Of a stretch of 64,000 nt of DNA, positions 2,807 to 34,921 are shown in pieces. Under the pieces are notes generated by a model. The model made no database searches and had not been told where the DNA came from. It saw only the letters and a list, made by a program, of their open reading frames with translations. How positions within the stretch are numbered: the first letter of the stretch is position 1; every line of letters starts with the position of its first letter. This DNA is from Deltaproteobacteria bacterium (lineage in GTDB: Bacteria > Myxococcota_C > UBA6777), in contig PCBK01000011.1 in assembly GCA_002731275.1 (NCBI GenBank), positions 1 to 64,000 of the forward strand, read 5' to 3'. A program made the position numbers and the translations under genes.

Positions 2807-4030
2807 TCACTTTTTCTTCTTTTTCTTCTTCTTTTTCTTCTTGGGTGTGGACTCGCTTGTTGGCTTATCCTCTTTGTTACCAGTGGTAGCAGACGCTTTT
2901 TCTGTTTTTGCAGGGGCGTCCTTTTTCTTCTCTTTGCTGCTCTTCTTCGCTTGCTTTCGCTCCTGCTCTTCTCCGTACTCACCCCACCGACGGTCGGGGA
3001 GCGTCACAAGGAAGTACACACCGAGACCAAAGGTCAGCATCGCCATGAACTGTCCGGGAGTCAGGCCGAGAGCTTGAGAGCGATTGTCGCTGCTTCCGAG
3101 TCGTAGGAAGTCGAACAAAAAGCGGATAGGTGCATAGAGGACAAACCATGTCCCGAGGATCATACCTTCTCGACGGGGTTTTCCAGTCTTGATCACGTAC
3201 ACAATGGCGACCAAGAACAGGAAGTAGAAGGCCTCCATTAAGCCGAGGTCAAAGCGCAGCTTGGTCGTATATGTCGGAGGTGAGACAAGCGCGAACCCAT
3301 TTTTGGGAAGCTGTGACCAGTTCATCGGCCAGTGGACCGTAAAGACACGGATAAAGTCAGGCAAGAAGGGATAGAAGATCGCAAAGAAGCCTGCAAACGC
3401 GAGCATGTAAAGCAGGTTTCCGGACTCAAACATCGGCTTCTCGCGAAGGCGACTGATCACCAAACCAACAGACAGCGTTGCGATAAGGAGCGCGATCCAC
3501 AGCAGCGGATTGTCCCACCCAGGGAGCGTGATGCTTCGCGATTGATATGCAGCGAGAAGACGAGGATTGCCTGCATTGTTGACCACCCACATACCAGGGT
3601 GATCATGAGCGACCATACAGCCCATGCGGCCAAAGAAGAAGCCGAACACTGTCCCGTAGGCGTAGGTGTCCATGTAGGGCAGCGGATCCACTTTGCGCCA
3701 ATATTTGAAGTAGAAGAACGCAACGACACCACCACCGAGGAAACCACCGAAGGAGGAGATGCCCTGCCAAAAGTAGATCAACACGAGCGGGTTTTTGGCG
3801 ATGAGTTCGGGAGAGTAGAGGACTGTATTGACGACGTGAGAGAGCATAAAGCCGCCGGGGATGACGACGAAGAAGCTGTCGATCATCATATCGAGATCGA
3901 GCTTCTGCTCTTCGGTCCAACGACGGATCAAGATCGAACCAATGATCACTCCACTCGCGACGAGCATACCAAATGCCTGGAGTGTGAAAGGACCAAATTT
4001 ATAGTGTGGGGTATGAATGTATGGAAACAT
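2807..4030 (-). CDS. lgt: Prolipoprotein diacylglyceryl transferase family protein (Lgt-like) with poly-Lys tail
   Basis: Polytopic inner-membrane protein of 407 residues. ATG at 4030 follows GGGAG by six bases; the in-frame TTG just upstream is less likely. The fold is recognisable from WQGISSFGGFLGG (about 88-100), GRMGC (134-138) and the C-terminal RFLFDFLR followed by LTPGQF. Canonical Lgt uses a His before GG, an Asn after GRxG and an Arg/Glu pair in R-F-x-x-E-x-x-R. Here these are Phe, Cys and Asp, and an HDHPG motif (142-146) follows instead. The protein transfers diacylglycerol to lipoprotein Cys if it is a true Lgt; it could also be a divergent paralogue. About 60 extra C-terminal residues are Lys/Ala/Glu-rich and end in 11 lysines, encoded by the T-rich tract at 2807-2843. 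Confidence 0.75.
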   Translation of the reverse strand: MFPYIHTPHYKFGPFTLQAFGMLVASGVIIGSILIRRWTEEQKLDLDMMIDSFFVVIPGGFMLSHVVNTVLYSPELIAKNPLVLIYFWQGISSFGGFLGGGVVAFFYFKYWRKVDPLPYMDTYAYGTVFGFFFGRMGCMVAHDHPGMWVVNNAGNPRLLAAYQSRSITLPGWDNPLLWIALLIATLSVGLVISRLREKPMFESGNLLYMLAFAGFFAIFYPFLPDFIRVFTVHWPMNWSQLPKNGFALVSPPTYTTKLRFDLGLMEAFYFLFLVAIVYVIKTGKPRREGMILGTWFVLYAPIRFLFDFLRLGSSDNRSQALGLTPGQFMAMLTFGLGVYFLVTLPDRRWGEYGEEQERKQAKKSSKEKKKDAPAKTEKASATTGNKEDKPTSESTPKKKKKKKKKKK

Positions 4031-4194
4031 CAATGACTCCCTGTTAGGGTTCCAATGTTTACGGGTCGGATGTGTAGCTCATCCTGCATAGAGGAAGTGC
4101 CAAAAAAAAGCAAGTCCGCACCGGTTGAATCGAGCCACGGTGTACACAATACCCCTTCGGGAATCAACGTTTCGAATCAGTTTACATGGTTTGC

Positions 4195-4222: not shown

Positions 4223-4366
4223 TTGTTTCGCTTCCACAAGAGTGTGGCAGCACAAAAGCAGACAAGACCTTCGTTTCGCGAAGATCACAAGGTCTGCACA
4301 ACAAACCAAGAGAATATACGTGTCAAAGCACACGAAACCTTGAAGGATAAAGAAGGAGACTTTCAC

Positions 4367-6277
4367 ATGGGAAAGGTAATCGGGATTGACTTGGGTACGA
4401 CCAACTCGGTCGTCGCAGTAATGGAACGCGGAGAACCGAAAGTCATCGTCAACCAAGAAGGACACCGCACAACACCCTCTGTTGTTGCGTTTACAGATAG
4501 TGGAGAGCGCCTCGTGGGTCAGGTCGCCAAACGACAGGCGATCACCAACCCCGAACGTACAATCTTCTCCATCAAACGATTCATGGGTCGTCGTTTTGAC
4601 GAAATCAGCGAAGAAATTCGCTCCGTCCCCTATGAAGTGCTCGCAGGTCCCAACAAAGACGCGCGCATCGGAATTGATGATTCACAATTTTCCCCTCCCG
4701 AGATCAGCGCGGTTGTTTTGCAAAAACTCAAACAAGCCGCTGAAGATTACCTTGGAGAAGATATCTCCCAGGCAGTCATCACCGTCCCAGCATACTTTAA
4801 CGATGCACAACGCCAATCGACAAAAGACGCTGGTAAAATCGCAGGCCTCGAAGTCCTGCGCATCGTCAACGAGCCCACTGCAGCGTCCATGGCTTACGGA
4901 CTCGACAAAGACGAAGAACACACCGTCGCAGTATACGACTTTGGTGGTGGTACCTTCGACATCTCGATCCTCGAAGTCAGCGATAGCGTCATCCAGGTCC
5001 TCTCCACAGCAGGTGACACCCACCTCGGTGGTGACACAATCGACCAAGCTATCATCGACTACTTGATCAGCGAGTTCAAGCGCGACACAGATCTCGATGT
5101 CTCAGGCGACCGTATGGTCCTCCAACGACTCAAAGAAGCGGCAGAGAAGGCCAAGATCGAGCTCTCCAGCGCGATGGAGACAGAGATCAACCTGCCCTTC
5201 TTGACTGCGGATCAAACAGGTCCCAAACACCTCAACTTGCGACTCACACGTCCCAAGCTTGAGCAGTTGATGGAAGATCTCGTCAACCGCACCAAGAATC
5301 CTTGCTTGCAAGCCCTCAAAGACGCAAAGCTCTCCGCTTCGGACATCGACGAAGTGATCCTCGTGGGTGGTTCAACACGTATCCCCCTCGTACAAGAGCT
5401 CGTCAAAAAAGTCTTCGGCAAAGAGCCTCACAAGGGAGTCAACCCTGACGAAGTTGTTGCACTTGGTGCAGCAGTCCAAGCAGGTGTCCTCGCAGGTGAA
5501 GTCACAGACCTTCTCCTCCTCGACGTCACGCCTTTGTCCCTCGGAATCGAGACACTTGGTGGTGTCTTCACCAAGTTGATCGAGCGCAACACGACGATCC
5601 CAACGCGTAAATCCGAGACCTTCTCAACCGCCGCAGATGGCCAAACAAGTGTTGAAGTCCACGTCCTCCAAGGAGAGCGTGAGATGGCTTCTCACAACCG
5701 TACGCTCGGACGCTTCCACCTCGATGGCATCCCACCAGCACCTCGCGGTGTGCCACAAGTTGAAGTCACCTTTGACATCGACGCAAACGGGATCCTTCAG
5801 GTCTCCGCGATCGACAAAGCGACCAACAAAAAACAAAACATCACCATCACAGCGTCCTCGACGCTCACAGACAACGAGATCAACCGTATGGTCCAAGAAG
5901 CTGAGGAAAATGCGGAAGCAGACCTCGCGCGTCGTGAGCTGATCGACATCCGTAACCAAGCGGACATGTTCATCTACCGCATGGAAAAGATGCTCAAGGA
6001 CAACGAAGACAAAATCGACCAAGAGCTCAAGACCTCCATCGAGTCCAAACTCGAAAAACTGCGCCAGACCAAAGAAAACTCAGAAGACGCAGAAGAGATC
6101 AAGACGTTGCTCGAAGAGATCGAGAAAGAGTCCTACGCTGTCGCAGAACAGATGTACAAACAAGCTGCTGAAGCAGGCGGAGCAGAAGCTGGAGTCGACC
6201 CAACAGCTGCTGCGGGTGAAAACCCAAGTGATGGTGGCGACGACATCATCGACGCCGAGTACGAAGAGCAAAAATAA
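4367..6277 (+). CDS. dnaK: Chaperone protein DnaK (Hsp70)
   Basis: Cytoplasmic ATP-dependent chaperone of 636 residues, the normal DnaK length. The start ATG 4367 follows AAGGAGA and begins [18 protein letters not shown], the standard N-terminus; upstream in-frame codons are 5' leader. Visible features are the ATPase phosphate-1 motif [10 protein letters not shown], the phosphate-2 motif [14 protein letters not shown], the adenosine motif [12 protein letters not shown], the interdomain linker region [13 protein letters not shown], the substrate-binding beta domain and the helical lid. It ends in a Gly/Ala-rich tail and [10 protein letters not shown], close to the conserved C-terminal EEVD-like acidic end of bacterial DnaK. 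It stands alone: no grpE or dnaJ is adjacent, and it has its own promoter and terminator. Confidence 0.98.
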
Positions 6278-6304: not shown

Positions 6305-6330
6305 AAGGCTGCTTCCGCAGCCTTTTTTTT
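6305..6330 (+). terminator. Rho-independent terminator of dnaK
   Basis: AAGGCTGC (6305-6312), loop TTCC and GCAGCCTT are followed by an unbroken run of T to 6330. It lies 28 bases after the dnaK stop. Confidence 0.93.
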
Positions 6331-6334
6331 CCCC

Positions 6335-6363
6335 TTGCTTTTCAAAGGCGTTTTTGTTATATA
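6335..6363 (+). promoter_or_regulatory. Candidate promoter of an orphan non-coding transcript
   Basis: TTGCTT (6335-6340), a 17-base spacer and TATATA (6358-6363) sit directly after the dnaK terminator. The expected start is near 6370. The -35 box is two bases from consensus, the -10 one base. No protein gene follows until rimP, which has its own promoter after another terminator. Confidence 0.5.
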
Positions 6364-6369
6364 GTACGC

Positions 6370-6761
6370 AGTCTTTCACTTGAGTATCGACTCAGCGATT
6401 TGTCTTTTTGTAAAATAAGTCTTGGGTTCGAAGGTTAACCTCAACCTTTTCCGATACTTTCAGAAAAGACCGCAATCTTGTCCCCTTGTGTTTTCAAGCT
6501 CATCCCCATGACATCGTTACCGCATGTAGGAATTGAGGACAAGTTTTACGATGCCTAATAGCGTCGTGTTTTCGCGCTCTATGTGGTCCACGCAGCAATC
6601 TGACCCAAGAGCCCTATGCGAAACCCTGACCGCATCGTATCCCACTTGGGAAGCTTCCAAATGTACACAGGTGCATCTTGGATGGGACTGGCCTGATGGC
6701 CTCCCCTTCTCCAAACCAAATGGCTGCGCATGAGAAAGTGGGTGTTTGAGCCCGCTTTTTT
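6370..6761 (+). ncRNA. Candidate structured non-coding RNA between dnaK and rimP
   Basis: This ~390-base stretch has a promoter-like element before it, a terminator at its end and no convincing ORF. Hairpins visible by eye are TGAGT/ACTCA (6381-6394) and AAGGTT/AACCTT (6431-6448). The 3' part forms a four-way junction: closing stem CGCAGC (6591-6596) with GCTGCG (6723-6728); arm 1 CCCAAG (6604-6609) with CTTGGG (6645-6650) and inner ATGCG/CGCAT (6616-6635); arm 2 of ten pairs with one bulged C at 6657-6681, loop ACAG; arm 3 GGGA..GGCC/GGCC..TCCC at 6684-6705. I checked for RNase P, tmRNA, SRP and 6S hallmarks and did not recognise them. It could also be a leader or attenuator, but the rimP promoter lies after the terminator. 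6278-6304 and 6799-6890 show nothing else. Confidence 0.5.
6736..6761 (+). terminator. Rho-independent terminator before the rimP operon
   Basis: AAGTGGG (6736-6742) pairs with CCCGCTT (6751-6757) through one G-T wobble, followed by six T. No protein-coding gene ends just before it, which supports an RNA gene upstream. Confidence 0.75.
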
Positions 6762-6770
6762 GTTTATCAG

Positions 6771-6890: not shown

Positions 6891-7466
6891 ATGAGTCAGT
6901 CCACCCAACGAAAATTGTACGAGTTGATTGAGTCCCTCGTCGAAGACGCAGGCTTTGAGCTCGTAGAACTTGAGTACCAGCGAGAACAAGGTTGGGTGTT
7001 GCGTCTGTACATTGAGCGCCCCGATCTCCCCGTCATCAAAGAGATAGGTGTCGCTCCCGGACAAGGCGTCACACTCGATGAATGTTCCGATATCAGCCGT
7101 CAGGTCTCAGCGTTGCTCGATGTAGAGGATGTGATCCCCCATCAGTACACGCTGCAGGTCTCATCACCGGGCGTACAGCGCCCACTGCGTAAAGAGCAAG
7201 ATTTCCAGCGTTTTTGTGGGTGCAGAGTGCGTGTCAAAACGTATGAGCCCATCCCCGCAGAGGAACAAGAAGGCAAGAAGACTCCCAAACCGAGCCGCAA
7301 TATGCTCGGAGATCTGGCAGAGGTCACTGACACAGCGCTCGTTGTTGATGTGCGAGGCAACCACTTTCATGTGCCGTTCGACAAAGTCGCGAGAGCACAC
7401 CTCGACCCAGACATGGACCTGTGGATGCAAGCTGCCAAGAAAGTCCGAAGCGACAAAGGAGAGTGA
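6891..7466 (+). CDS. rimP: Ribosome maturation factor RimP
   Basis: Cytoplasmic factor for 30S subunit assembly, 191 residues against about 150 in E. coli. The N-terminal alpha/beta domain (about 1-95) has the typical ..AGFELVELEYQREQGWVLRLY and the family motif VTLDECSDISRQVS; the central VSSPGVQRPL is the RimP signature. The C-terminal SH3-like domain is lengthened by an insertion around 125-145 rich in Glu, Lys and Pro. The ATG at 6891 has only a weak purine-rich site (AAAGAG). First gene of the operon that continues to the HAD gene; gene order rimP-nusA-ylxR-infB matches most bacteria, apart from the extra small ORF that follows. Confidence 0.95.
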   Translation: MSQSTQRKLYELIESLVEDAGFELVELEYQREQGWVLRLYIERPDLPVIKEIGVAPGQGVTLDECSDISRQVSALLDVEDVIPHQYTLQVSSPGVQRPLRKEQDFQRFCGCRVRVKTYEPIPAEEQEGKKTPKPSRNMLGDLAEVTDTALVVDVRGNHFHVPFDKVARAHLDPDMDLWMQAAKKVRSDKGE

Positions 7467-7611: not shown

Positions 7612-9048
7612 ATGGCGGTAGCTATCGAGTTTAACCTAAAAAAATTGCTTCAGGACATTGAGAAGGAAAAAGGAATCAAACGCGAGATCCTTCTTGAAGC
7701 CATTGAATCAGCAGTGCTGAGCGCCGCACGGAAAAAGCTGGGTGCACAATTTGACATGGAAGCTCGCTACAACGACGAAGGTGGCGAAGTTGAGGTCTTT
7801 CGATGGCTACACGTCGTCGACGAAGTCGAAGATCCCTACAGAGAGATCAAACTCGAAGAGGCTCGCGAACGTCTTGATCCCGATTGTAACATCGATGACG
7901 AGCTCGGAGAAAAACTCGACACATCACAGTTTGGCCGCATCGCCGCACAAACCGCTAAACAAGTGATCATCCAGCGCGTCCGTAAAGCGGAACGCGAACT
8001 CGTCTTCAACGAATACAAAGATCGCAAAGGTGAGCTCGTTACAGGTATCGTACGTCGCTTTGAACGCAAAGACGTCATCATCGACCTCGGCCGCGCAGAG
8101 GCTGCCCTCTCCAACAACGAACAAATCCCACGTGAGACGTATCGCATCAACGACCGTATCCAAGCGTACATCAAAGATGTCCGCAACGAAGAGAAAGGCT
8201 CTATCATTACATTGAGCCGCACTGATGAAGGCTTCTTGATCAAACTCTTCGAGATGGAAGTTCCCGAAATCTACGACGGAATTGTACGTATCGTAAGCGC
8301 TGCACGAGATCCCGGTATCCGCGCCAAAATTGCCGTCACATCTCGTGACCATGACGTCGACCCAGTTGGCGCTTGTGTTGGTGTCAAAGGTGCCCGTGTC
8401 CAAGCTGTCGTCCAAGAATTACGTGGTGAAAAAATCGACATCGTCCCCTACAGCGAAGATCCAGCACGATTTGTCTGTAACGCGATCGCTCCTGCACAAG
8501 TCAGCCGCGTCATCATCGACGAAGAAAAACGCTCCATGGAGCTTATCGTCCCTGACGACCAACAATCACTCGCGATCGGACGCCGTGGACAAAACGTTCG
8601 CCTCGCAGCCAAACTGACAGGTTGGAACATCGACATCGTCTCCGAAGTCGAAGTCGCCAGAGCACAAGAGCGCACACATGAGGTGATGTCTCTCGTCGCA
8701 GGACTTGACAAAGACGTCCTCGCCCCACTGTTTAAATTGGGCTACCGCTCTGAACGTGACATCGTCAAAGCCGACATCGCAGACCTCGCGATTATTCCAG
8801 GTATTGGTGTCGCGAATGCCGAAAAGATCAAAGAAGCAGCACAGCTCGCGCTCGATCGCGGTCCTGAGCTGCTCGAAGAGCTCCAAGCCCAAATCGCAGC
8901 CAATAAACAAGCTGAAGCAGAAGCTGAAGCCGCAGCGGAGGCAGCAGAAGATACAGCCGAAACATCCACAGAAGCAGTGGCCGAAGAGAGTGAAGAGGCT
9001 GTCGCCTCCACCGAAACAGTCACCGAAGAACCAACAGGTAACGTATAA
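7612..9048 (+). CDS. nusA: Transcription termination/antitermination protein NusA
   Basis: RNA polymerase-binding elongation factor of 478 residues. ATG 7612 follows GGAG by seven bases. Domains in order: N-terminal RNAP-binding domain (about 1-130), S1 domain with [21 protein letters not shown] (about 140-205), KH1 and KH2 (about 210-345; the KH2 loop [11 protein letters not shown] is clear), then a helix-hairpin-helix-type segment with [17 protein letters not shown] (about 395-415). The last 50 residues are an Ala/Glu/Thr-rich acidic tail, in place of the two acidic repeats of E. coli NusA. It is part of the rimP-infB operon, where NusA commonly controls its own transcript. Confidence 0.97.
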
Positions 9049-9084: not shown

Positions 9085-9699
9085 ATGGCACTCACAAAAG
9101 GTAAGCCAAACAAGAAAAAACACGTGCCAGAGCGTTCGTGTGTGGCCTGCCGCGAAAAGCATCCACAATCGTCACTCGTGCGCATCGTGCTCTCCCCCGA
9201 GCAGGAGGTCCACATTGACTATCTAGGCAAATGCCCAGGCCGTGGTGCATACGTATGCCCCGATCCGAAGTGTATCCAACGCGCTGCGGAACGTGGAGGA
9301 TTTGCACGTGCATTCAAAACGCAGGTCAAAGCCGAGACACACACCCTACTCGCACAAGCAAGAGAAGCTGCATCCAAGCAAATACGCTCGCTGCTCTCCC
9401 TCGCGCACCGTGCGAAAGTCGTCGCAGCCGGAAACAGTCGTGTCGAAATCGCCTTACGCGAACAAAAGGTCAAACTCCTCTTGCTCGCAACAGACGCATC
9501 CGATGGTGTCAAGCAAAAGTTCTCTAGGTGGGCTTCACGCTCAGACATTCCCGTGTATGAGACGCTCACCCAAGTCGAGCTCGCACCCAGTGTGGGACAG
9601 AACACTTGCTCCCTGATCACCATCCACGACGCACAGTTTGCCAAAAAAATCGAACAGGAGGTGCAACGCGCAAGGCTGCTGGCCATACCCAAAAGCTAG
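9085..9699 (+). CDS. YlxR (RnpM)-family protein fused to an L7Ae-like RNA-binding domain
   Basis: 204-residue RNA-binding protein between nusA and infB. Residues about 10-90 are the YlxR/DUF448 domain: RSCVACREK, LVRIV, a conserved GKCPGRGAYVCP and a second Cys pair. Residues about 95-200 match the L7Ae/YlxQ type domain (LLSLAHRAKVVAAGNSRVE, VKLLLLATDAS). In Bacillus these are separate neighbouring genes; fused forms occur in proteobacteria. YlxR has been linked to RNase P control in Bacillus and L7Ae-type proteins bind kink-turn RNA. ATG 9085 has GGAG at a somewhat long distance of 11 bases. Confidence 0.9.
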   Translation: MALTKGKPNKKKHVPERSCVACREKHPQSSLVRIVLSPEQEVHIDYLGKCPGRGAYVCPDPKCIQRAAERGGFARAFKTQVKAETHTLLAQAREAASKQIRSLLSLAHRAKVVAAGNSRVEIALREQKVKLLLLATDASDGVKQKFSRWASRSDIPVYETLTQVELAPSVGQNTCSLITIHDAQFAKKIEQEVQRARLLAIPKS

Positions 9700-9859: not shown

Positions 9860-12800
9860 ATGGCAAAAGTGAGAGTTCACCACCTCGCCCATGAACTGAA
9901 TATGAAGAGCAAAGAGTTCATCCAACGAGCCCAAGAACTGGGATATGATCATATCAAGTCCCACGCCAACACGCTCGAAGCGAGCGAAGCAGCGGAACTC
10001 AAAGCGAAAATCGAGCAAGGGCAAGGGTCCGCAAAACCCAAGCGAAAGCAAACAGTTCTCCGCCGACGGACGCAACGAAATTCCAACGATGGTGGCTACC
10101 AAGTCACGATCACGCGTCTCTCTGCGGAATCCGAACAGGTTATCGAGAGCAAGCGCATCGAGACCCCTGTGATCCCTGAGATCGTGCTTCCAACGCCCAT
10201 CGCATCACCTGCGCCAGATGAGCAAACCACTGCTGTTGAAGAACCAGCTTCAACACAAACAACTGAAGTCCCGCAAGAGACATTGACACCAGCACCAGAA
10301 GCATCTGTCTCAACGCCTCCCGTCTCTGTCGAAGTCACACAACCCGTCAGCCAACCCACACAAGAGGTGCAAAAGACGGTTGTCGAGACACCACAAGAAG
10401 AGACACACACCACAACGCCCCCAACACCCCAACAAGAAGCAACACCTGTGGCTGCAAAGACGAAAGTCAAAGAGCCTGTTGCAACCCCACAAGTTGAGAC
10501 CGCAGTTGTGACAGAGACACCTGCACAACCTGTAGAGAACAAGAACACTGAGACCAAAACTGAGACCAAAGAAGAACCAGTCGTCGCTGCACCCAAAGCA
10601 CCAACAAAAGAAACCCCCGTCGAGACACCAACTCAACCAACATCTCCCGCACCAACCTCCCCCACAGCCCAGGCTCAGCCAGTGAGCCAACCGGAGCCTT
10701 CCATGCAACAAGAAACCACCGCAACCCCCGCAGCGAAACCGACGAAACAAGAAAAGAAACAAGAGAAGAAAACACCGGCCAAAGAGGCAAACCCAGCGCT
10801 TAATCAGCTGCTGAACACTGGACTCAGCCAAGATGTCACCAAAAAGAAACCCAAGCAGCCCAGCAGGAAGTTCAAAGAACACCCTGCTGATCGCAACACA
10901 GGGTCAGACATCAAGCGAATGGAAGCTGCGGAGAAATACTCCGAGAAGGCTCACAAAGTTAACAAAAAAAACAAGCCCAGCAAAACCACAACCACAGAAA
11001 CCTTTAACAACAGAAAACCCAACTACCAAAAGAAAAATAACCGGAAGCAAACTACGTTTGATAGACGCAGAAATCGCAGAAACAGACGCAGAGATAGTTC
11101 CTCACAACCAACACAGTCGACCGCGCCTATGAAAGCAGAGAAAAAAGTCATCAAAGTTGATGAAGCCATTTCCGTCGCAGATCTTGCGCACAAAATGGGA
11201 ATCAAAGCCACTGATATTATTCGTAAGCTCCTCTCCCAAGGGGTAATGGCCACCATCAACCAGGCCCTGACTGTCGAAACAGCAACAGACCTGGCAAAAA
11301 GCTATGGATATGAGATTCAGGATGTCTCCTTCGATGAAGAAGAAATCCTCGAAGAAACTGCCGAAGTCGAAGACGACGCAGAGCTCAAACCTCGCTCCCC
11401 GGTGATTGCTGTCATGGGACACGTTGACCACGGGAAAACCTCGTTGCTCGACGCGATCCGCGAGACCAACGTCGCCGCCCGCGAAGCCGGTGGTATCACC
11501 CAGCACATTGGTGCTTCTGTTGTCAAAACGAGCAACGGAAATCTCGTATTCCTCGACACTCCTGGTCACGAAGCCTTTACCGCAATGCGCGCCAGGGGTG
11601 CACAATCCACCGACATCGTTATCCTCGTTGTCGCCGCCGATGACGGCATTATGCCCCAGACGCAAGAAGCCATCAGCCACGCACAAGCTGCGGGCGTCCC
11701 CATCGTCGTCGCGATCAACAAGATCGATAAACTCGGTGCAGACCCCGCAAACGTCCGCAATGAGCTGACACGCTTCAACCTCATCCCCGAAGAATGGGGT
11801 GGTGAGACCTTGATGTGTAACGTCTCCGCGCATACCAAAGAAGGTATCCCTGAGTTGCTCGAACAGGTCGCACTGCAAGCCGAATTGTTGGAGCTGAAAG
11901 CCAACCCCAACAAACGCGCTCGTGGTACCGTCATCGAAGCAAGGATCGAAAAAGGACGTGGTCCTGTCGCGACACTCCTCGTCCAAGAAGGTACACTCTC
12001 CAACGGTGATGCCGTCGTCGCAGGTACATTCTTCGGGAAAGTCCGCGCCATGTTCTCCGATGCAGGGAAGAAGCTCAAAAAAGTGGGGCCCTCCACACCT
12101 GTGCGAATCCTCGGTCTCAACGGTCTCCCCACCCCTGGTGAGCAGTTTGACAACGTCAAGGATACAAAAGATGCTGAGCGCATCGCACAACACCGTCTCG
12201 ATAAAGAGAAAACCACCACAACAAGCACCGGCAGCATGATGACCTTTGAGGACTTCTTCTCCCAAGGGAAGAAAGAACTCAACATCATCCTCAAAGCTGA
12301 CGTGCAAGGTACACTCGAAGCCATCAAAGACAGCCTCTCCAAGCTGACATTTGATGAAATTGAGGTCAAAGTCCTCCACGCAGGTGTTGGTGGTATCACA
12401 GAGAGCGATATCAACCTCGCGTCGACAACCGAGCACGCGCTGATCGTAGGTTTCCATGTCCGCGCTGATAACAAAGCACAACGCATGGCCGAAGCCGCTG
12501 GTATCGAAGTCCGTATCTATCGTGTCATCTACGACCTGATCAACGAAGTCAAGGCGTTCTTGCAACAGCAACTCGCACCCACGGTCCAAGAAAAACCCAT
12601 CGGGCAAGCCGAGATCCGACAGATCTTCAGCATCCCCAAGGTTGGAAAGATCGCTGGTTGTTACGTCACTGATGGCAAGATCACCCGTAACGCGTTGATG
12701 CGACTCTTCCGCGAAGATATCCAAATCTACGAAGGAAAAGTCTCCTCACTCCGTCGCTTCAAAAATGACGCGAAAGAGGTCGGTACAGGCTACGAATGTG

Positions 12801-12892
12801 GTATCCAAATCGAAGGCTACCAAGACATTCGTGAAGGCGACGTCATCGAAGCATACGAACTCGAAGAAGTTGAAACCAAGCTGGAGAGCTGA
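9860..12892 (+). CDS. infB: Translation initiation factor IF-2
   Basis: GTPase of 1010 residues that places initiator tRNA on the 30S subunit. ATG 9860 follows AGGAG by eight bases. An IF2-N type domain (MAKVRVHHLAHELN, 1-50) is followed by about 330 residues of Pro/Thr/Gln/Glu-rich low complexity and a basic Asn/Arg/Lys-rich stretch (to about 420). A second IF2-N domain (ISVADLAHKMG, about 433-480) leads to the GTPase: G1 GHVDHGKT (520-527), G3 DTPGH, G4 NKID, then domains II, III and the C-terminal fMet-tRNA binding domain. The disordered N-terminal region is long, as in other myxobacteria. The last codon and the next gene are two bases apart. Confidence 0.98.
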   Translation: MAKVRVHHLAHELNMKSKEFIQRAQELGYDHIKSHANTLEASEAAELKAKIEQGQGSAKPKRKQTVLRRRTQRNSNDGGYQVTITRLSAESEQVIESKRIETPVIPEIVLPTPIASPAPDEQTTAVEEPASTQTTEVPQETLTPAPEASVSTPPVSVEVTQPVSQPTQEVQKTVVETPQEETHTTTPPTPQQEATPVAAKTKVKEPVATPQVETAVVTETPAQPVENKNTETKTETKEEPVVAAPKAPTKETPVETPTQPTSPAPTSPTAQAQPVSQPEPSMQQETTATPAAKPTKQEKKQEKKTPAKEANPALNQLLNTGLSQDVTKKKPKQPSRKFKEHPADRNTGSDIKRMEAAEKYSEKAHKVNKKNKPSKTTTTETFNNRKPNYQKKNNRKQTTFDRRRNRRNRRRDSSSQPTQSTAPMKAEKKVIKVDEAISVADLAHKMGIKATDIIRKLLSQGVMATINQALTVETATDLAKSYGYEIQDVSFDEEEILEETAEVEDDAELKPRSPVIAVMGHVDHGKTSLLDAIRETNVAAREAGGITQHIGASVVKTSNGNLVFLDTPGHEAFTAMRARGAQSTDIVILVVAADDGIMPQTQEAISHAQAAGVPIVVAINKIDKLGADPANVRNELTRFNLIPEEWGGETLMCNVSAHTKEGIPELLEQVALQAELLELKANPNKRARGTVIEARIEKGRGPVATLLVQEGTLSNGDAVVAGTFFGKVRAMFSDAGKKLKKVGPSTPVRILGLNGLPTPGEQFDNVKDTKDAERIAQHRLDKEKTTTTSTGSMMTFEDFFSQGKKELNIILKADVQGTLEAIKDSLSKLTFDEIEVKVLHAGVGGITESDINLASTTEHALIVGFHVRADNKAQRMAEAAGIEVRIYRVIYDLINEVKAFLQQQLAPTVQEKPIGQAEIRQIFSIPKVGKIAGCYVTDGKITRNALMRLFREDIQIYEGKVSSLRRFKNDAKEVGTGYECGIQIEGYQDIREGDVIEAYELEEVETKLES

Positions 12893-13360: not shown

Positions 13361-13774
13361 ATGAGCGGAAAGCGCAGCGACCGCCTCGCGCACCAATTGC
13401 GAGACGAAATTAGCCAGATCATCCAACGTGGTGAAGTCAAAGATCCCCGCGTCGGATTCGCAAGTATCCCCGGCGTACGACTGACAAAAGACCTCGGACA
13501 TGCACGTGTCTTTGTCAGCGTCTACGGCTCCAAAGAAGAAGGCGAAGCCACACTCAAAGCACTCAAACACGCACAAGGATACATCCGCACACTTCTCTCC
13601 AAACGGCTGCGTGTTCGACAAATCCCCGATCTCGACTTTATCCTCGATACTTCCATCCAGGACGGGATCCGCATGAACGAGATCATCAACGCGTTGCCCG
13701 AAGTGCAAGAACAAAGTGATGCTCCCGTCCACGAAGATGATGAGCCCCAATCCACCGAACACGAAAACACCTAA
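13361..13774 (+). CDS. rbfA: 30S ribosome-binding factor RbfA
   Basis: 137-residue KH-fold factor for late 30S maturation and cold growth. The pattern is typical: RSDRLAHQLRDEISQII, then DPRVGFASIPGVRLTKDLGHARVFVS split over a strand-helix-strand, and ending RQIPDLDFILDTSIQDG. The C-terminal 25 residues are acidic and Glu/His-rich beyond the domain. The start lies in AAGGTCCAAATCGATGA; an almost identical context occurs at the nrnA start. It is in the rimP-infB operon, 97 bases after the DUF503 gene. Confidence 0.95.
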   Translation: MSGKRSDRLAHQLRDEISQIIQRGEVKDPRVGFASIPGVRLTKDLGHARVFVSVYGSKEEGEATLKALKHAQGYIRTLLSKRLRVRQIPDLDFILDTSIQDGIRMNEIINALPEVQEQSDAPVHEDDEPQSTEHENT

Positions 13775-34701: not shown

Positions 34702-34755
34702 TTCTTTTTCTCCTTATTCTCACTTCTACTCCTGCTTGGGAAGTCAAGTGAGGAG

Positions 34756-34778
34756 AAAAGTGGTTCCACTTTTTTTTC
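34756..34778. terminator. Bidirectional-type terminator hairpin
   Basis: AAAAGTGG and CCACTTTT are perfect arms around TT (34756-34773), with A on one side and T on the other, so both strands read a stem followed by T. On the minus strand it lies after trmL. The 220-base gap shows no gene. Confidence 0.65.
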
Positions 34779-34921
34779 AAAAAAGCTTTTCATTACAAAG
34801 GAGTTAGAAGAGGACGCACCAATCCATTCTATGCAAAGACATTTGCATATGATCGTTCTTTCATCACCGTCTGGAGTGGATAGTCACCAAGGCTTGAAAA
34901 AAGTTCCAGGAGAGGGAAAAA

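Follow-up and report, generated by a model that had tools for sequence, protein, structure and literature searches.

Organization of the dnaK–rimP locus

The window, by which we mean the whole 64-kb stretch of DNA analysed, carries dnaK and the rimP operon on one strand, and the region between them holds a series of transcription signals. The genes and features of the locus are as follows.

4364–6277, plus strand: dnaK, the upstream neighbour (PF00012, E = 3e-263; stop codon 6275–6277)
6305–6330, plus strand: strong dnaK terminator (8-pair stem with a loop of 4 at 6305–6324, T run after it)
6335–6363, plus strand: sigma-70-type promoter of the rimP operon (TTGCTT 6335–6340, 17-base spacer, TATATA 6358–6363)
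6370–6761, plus strand: predicted leader RNA of about 392 nt (whole-leader MFE z = −3.7)
6734–6765, plus strand: putative rimP-leader attenuator, an intrinsic terminator (hairpin at about 6735–6761, AAAGUGGGU-loop-GCCCGCUUUUUUGUUU)
6891–7466, plus strand: rimP, first gene of the attenuated operon (PF02576, E = 1.5e-22; PF17384)
7612–9048, plus strand: nusA, encoding the proposed feedback regulator (PF08529, PF13184, PF00575)
9085–9699, plus strand: ylxR with an L7Ae-like C-terminal domain (PF04296 and PF01248)
9860–12892, plus strand: infB, encoding IF-2 (PF11987, PF04760)
13361–13774, plus strand: rbfA (PF02033)

According to the Pfam assignments, the genes after the leader follow one another on one strand in the order rimP-nusA-ylxR-infB-DUF503-rbfA. 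The leader is insulated from dnaK transcription by the dnaK terminator, and the positions of the −35 and −10 elements place the predicted transcription start near 6370. The promoter is a modest match to the consensus and is absent from the list of a generic promoter scan; its support comes from conservation, as described below. No plausible gene was found in the list of open reading frames on the plus strand between promoter and terminator, and no promoter-like site was found in the window between the terminator and rimP.

The terminator upstream of rimP

The rimP-leader has been described as the most ubiquitous transcription attenuator and is defined by a GGGc...gCCC stem terminator located 4–130 nt before rimP, in most species without a larger conserved element or a visible antiterminator; NusA was proposed as the best candidate for its regulator (Naville and Gautheret, 2010; PMC2965389). 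In the window, the terminator stem is GGGU...GCCCGCUUUUUU with a U stretch after it. The segment 6731–6762 folds strongly for so short a stretch, with an MFE of −15.9 kcal/mol (z = −6.0) that none of its shuffles equalled, and the distance to rimP, measured from the last base of the T6 run, is about 130 bases. The window thus resembles the general form in having a terminator with a GGG...CCC stem and a U tract, in placing it ahead of rimP in a rimP-nusA-infB operon, in its distance of about 130 bases to the start codon, and in having no larger conserved element. It differs from that form in the base after GGG, which is C in the consensus and U here (as also in L031 and the g3 relatives), although this U still pairs with G, and in the length of the leader, about 390 nt here against tens of bases. 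Judged by its sequence, the predicted terminator has the anatomy by which a rimP-leader attenuator is recognized.

A single site in the window fits the pattern A[AG]GTGGG-N-CCC[AG]C-T4. Furthermore, a covariance model trained solely on eight rimP loci from outside this family, and roughly calibrated, placed its top site in the 64-kb window at 6734–6765 (21.0 bits, E = 0.0068). The second site, at 34756, scored 19.4 bits and is without the GGG motif. The same model detects the g3 sites, at 22.9 bits, and gives weak hits to the g2 sites. When whole genomes were searched with a 30-position model, the known sites were not among the 150 candidates scored per genome. As a separate observation, positions 34750–34779 form a compact hairpin flanked on either side by A and T runs, resembling a bidirectional terminator, and the model matches it on both strands.

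The Rfam family RF01770 (rimP) shares with this element its position before rimP. On the other hand, the tandem upstream CCC...GGG terminator of Gammaproteobacteria is not seen in the window, and RF01770 gave no match there (gathering threshold 47 bits). Its best score in this genome, 20.6 bits, lies on another contig, and it passes the cut-off in 1 of 14 control genomes. Rfam scans of the region at gathering and permissive thresholds returned chance-level matches only. An earlier note on this DNA had recognized no known RNA class at the locus, which holds as far as Rfam families are concerned, but the published description of the rimP-leader attenuator does apply. The length of the unit and the lack of a gene in it might also bring to mind a diverged housekeeping RNA, such as 6S RNA or tmRNA, missed by Rfam; with no Rfam match in the region, we regard this as extremely improbable. 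Both RNAs are encoded elsewhere in the genome, with 81 bits for 6S RNA on contig C151 and 150 bits for tmRNA on contig C3.

Conservation within the family and across phyla

The phylum was sampled through five genomes including that of the window, which belong to three genera of one family, the window's genome being the sole member of its genus in this sample. A promoter is kept upstream of rimP in all four relatives (TTGCTT or TTGACT, a 17-base spacer, and TATAAG or TAAAAG), and a terminator of the form GTGGG...CCC(g/a)C with a U tract precedes rimP in all five genomes. The distance from terminator to rimP in the relatives is 48–136 bases, with 48 bases in G001, and three relatives fall slightly outside the published range of 4–130 nt. 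Because both of its ends are conserved in the relatives, a discrete transcription unit from promoter to terminator is well supported at the sequence level.

The body of the RNA is not conserved in this way. The leader upstream of the terminator could not be aligned with those of the other genera, with scores no better than those of shuffles (p about 0.7). The sole similar part is the terminator, in which the window and the g3 relatives agree at 87% over 31 bases. Leader lengths are about 392 nt in the window, 126 nt in g3, and 220 and 244 nt in g2.

A search for relatives of RimP gave nine further loci, one of them from this family (L028) and eight from outside it, the latter recorded under the names of Myxococcaceae, Desulfuromonadales, Clostridiales, Gammaproteobacteria and Acidobacteria bins. 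A like hairpin with a U tract, (a/g)GUGGG...CCCaC, stands before rimP in 8/8 of the outside loci; two gammaproteobacterial loci carry the variant AUGGGC...GCCCAU, and the terminator of L030 has GCUCAC, which the pattern missed and which was read by eye. In an alignment of twelve sequences, the GGG/CCC inner pairs hardly vary, and at three outer pairs both sides have changed, counts that lean towards the stem since the alignment was anchored by hand on it and the loops were masked. The predicted rimP-leader attenuator is conserved in both position and sequence across phyla. From the −10 element to the terminator, the distance in other groups is roughly 15–40 bases (four loci, with promoters read from the consensus only). 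A further observation concerns the g2 leaders L027 and L028, in which there is a second conserved hairpin, GGGGCUC...GGAGCCUUCUnUGUUUG. This hairpin has no counterpart in the window and could serve as a tandem upstream terminator or as a protein site.

These comparisons bear on the possibility that the segment is a small RNA gene in its own right, about 390 nt long, and that transcription of rimP begins elsewhere. Such a gene would account for a structured, gene-free segment bracketed by a promoter and a terminator, and for the roughly 130 bases that separate the terminator from rimP. However, it is the promoter and terminator that are conserved before rimP and not the RNA body, the terminator is of a rimP-specific type across phyla, and the gap after it shrinks to 48 bases in G001 and contains no promoter-like site in the window. 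We consider a stand-alone gene very unlikely, and an operon leader accommodates these features better.

Folding of the leader

Two parts of the leader were considered besides the terminator.

6370–6470, plus strand: 5' domain of the leader, predicted to adopt a three-way fold closed by GUCUUU/AAAGAC (MFE −27.7, z = −3.2)
6591–6728, plus strand: segment of a claimed four-way junction, in which arms 2 and 3 are local hairpins and the junction is unsupported

Leaving the terminator aside, no part of the leader outdoes its shuffles in folding as robustly as 6370–6470. The four-way junction, which the earlier note had proposed with three arms and a closing stem, did not withstand folding in context. 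The two strands of the closing stem (6591–6596/6723–6728) are complementary and pair with a probability of 0.95–0.99 when 6585–6735 is folded alone, but adding the leader sequence from 6370 or from 6471 brings this probability down to 0.0. For arm 1 (6604–6650), the outer stem (6604–6609/6645–6650) reaches a probability of 0.21 at best, when folded alone, and 0.0 in the leader. Arms 2 (6657–6681) and 3 (6684–6705) were recovered as locally stable hairpins. Multiloops with at least four branches are common in shuffles of the segment (32–36%), and its energy z-scores run from −1.6 to −3.1 depending on the cut points; as modelled, the evidence for an unusual stability is fragile. Nor is the junction supported by conservation: upstream of the terminator, the window could not be aligned with the relatives, all of which are from other genera, and by the earlier note's own criterion of homologous gaps that fail to keep the stems this part of its proposal falls.

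A structured 5' domain raises the question of a true sensor, whether a riboswitch, a ribosomal-protein site or a temperature-sensing element, that would switch the terminator through an antiterminator. Consistent with this idea, the 5' domain is more stable than its shuffled versions (z about −3.2), upstream segments can pair with the terminator's 5' arm as long as the 3' arm has yet to be made, and long leaders occur throughout the sampled phylum. One candidate antiterminator would pair CCCACUU (about 6641–6648) with AAGUGGG (about 6736–6742); the two are complementary, but the pairing is weaker than the terminator and is without a consistent counterpart in the relatives. For each of the five leaders, the best terminator-free structure is less favourable than the terminator form by 7–12 kcal/mol. 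The 5' arm finds a different upstream partner in each genome, no consistent antiterminator emerges, and no upstream sequence is conserved between genera. The published analysis likewise saw no antiterminator in the general rimP-leader (PMC2965389). A sensor of this kind appears unlikely, and these models accord better with a simple, protein-modulated terminator than with a riboswitch.

A putative NusA-responsive leader of the rimP operon

Taken as a whole, the unit is best read as the transcribed leader of the rimP-nusA-ylxR-infB-rbfA operon, equipped with a rimP-leader attenuator and with NusA as its most likely regulator, a reading to which we give a probability of about 0.88. RNA polymerase would start near 6370, make about 390 nt, and meet the intrinsic terminator at 6734–6765, where some polymerases would stop and release a short RNA, while the remainder would continue into rimP, which begins about 130 bases later. 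NusA, the product of the second gene, most likely stimulates termination at the hairpin, such that high NusA would reduce readthrough and keep the operon in balance. Given the 48-base gap in G001 and the lack of a promoter-like site after the window terminator, transcription of rimP should need readthrough. The terminated RNA of about 390 nt (6370–6761), as a predicted short transcript, would be a by-product.

The promoter, the terminator, their conservation before rimP and the order of the operon genes were observed directly in the genomes studied. The role of NusA at this leader is the most likely one by analogy with other bacteria. In B. subtilis, NusA is autoregulated through NusA-stimulated termination in its own 5' leader (2025 review, PMC12288461), and the nusA operon leader is about 180 nt (PMC2965389); in S. 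agalactiae, short and long transcripts arise from one start upstream of rimP (PMC4448216). The window shares with B. subtilis a leader terminator with NusA encoded downstream in the same operon, but its leader is about 390 nt, and its dependence on NusA is a proposal by analogy. Several points speak against the locus being an operon leader of this type, namely a leader much longer than those of other groups, a U in place of the published C next to GGG, the failure of RF01770 to match the window, and a promoter that is a modest consensus match unlisted by the generic scan.

The earlier note had described the locus as an orphan RNA unit, with a promoter-like element after the dnaK terminator and, about 390 bases later, a terminator with no gene before it. 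The signals themselves were confirmed, since TTGCTT-17-TATATA was found, with the same architecture in 4/4 relatives, as was the hairpin at about 6735–6761 (z = −6.0). It is also correct that no plus-strand gene lies between them, but the description is misleading, because the terminator precedes its gene, rimP, which begins at 6891. Rather than an orphan, the unit is read here as the leader of the same-strand rimP-nusA-infB operon, and its terminator as the known rimP-leader attenuator. More generally, where a promoter and a terminator enclose no gene, the two may delimit the leader of the gene that follows.

The present analysis adds a sparsely sampled phylum to those with a rimP-leader attenuator, and it fits the idea that feedback via the nusA operon leader is ancient and general. 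Leaders in this lineage are about 126–392 nt, as compared with the tens of bases read at four loci from other groups. This length is the only noteworthy feature of what is otherwise an ordinary leader with a small lineage-specific twist. A more ambitious proposal, which we hold to be rather improbable, is that the rimP-leader of this small phylum has gained a long structured 5' domain, with as much as about 365 nt ahead of the terminator, which would sense an extra signal, or that the terminated product would act in trans as a small RNA.

Two protein-coding features of the window may be recorded in addition. At 9085–9699, a single gene joins YlxR (PF04296) to an L7Ae-like domain (PF01248); B. 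subtilis has ylxR and ylxQ as two genes. On the minus strand, the prolipoprotein-transferase-like protein encoded by the open reading frame 2807–4033 ends in a long lysine run (2807–2860).
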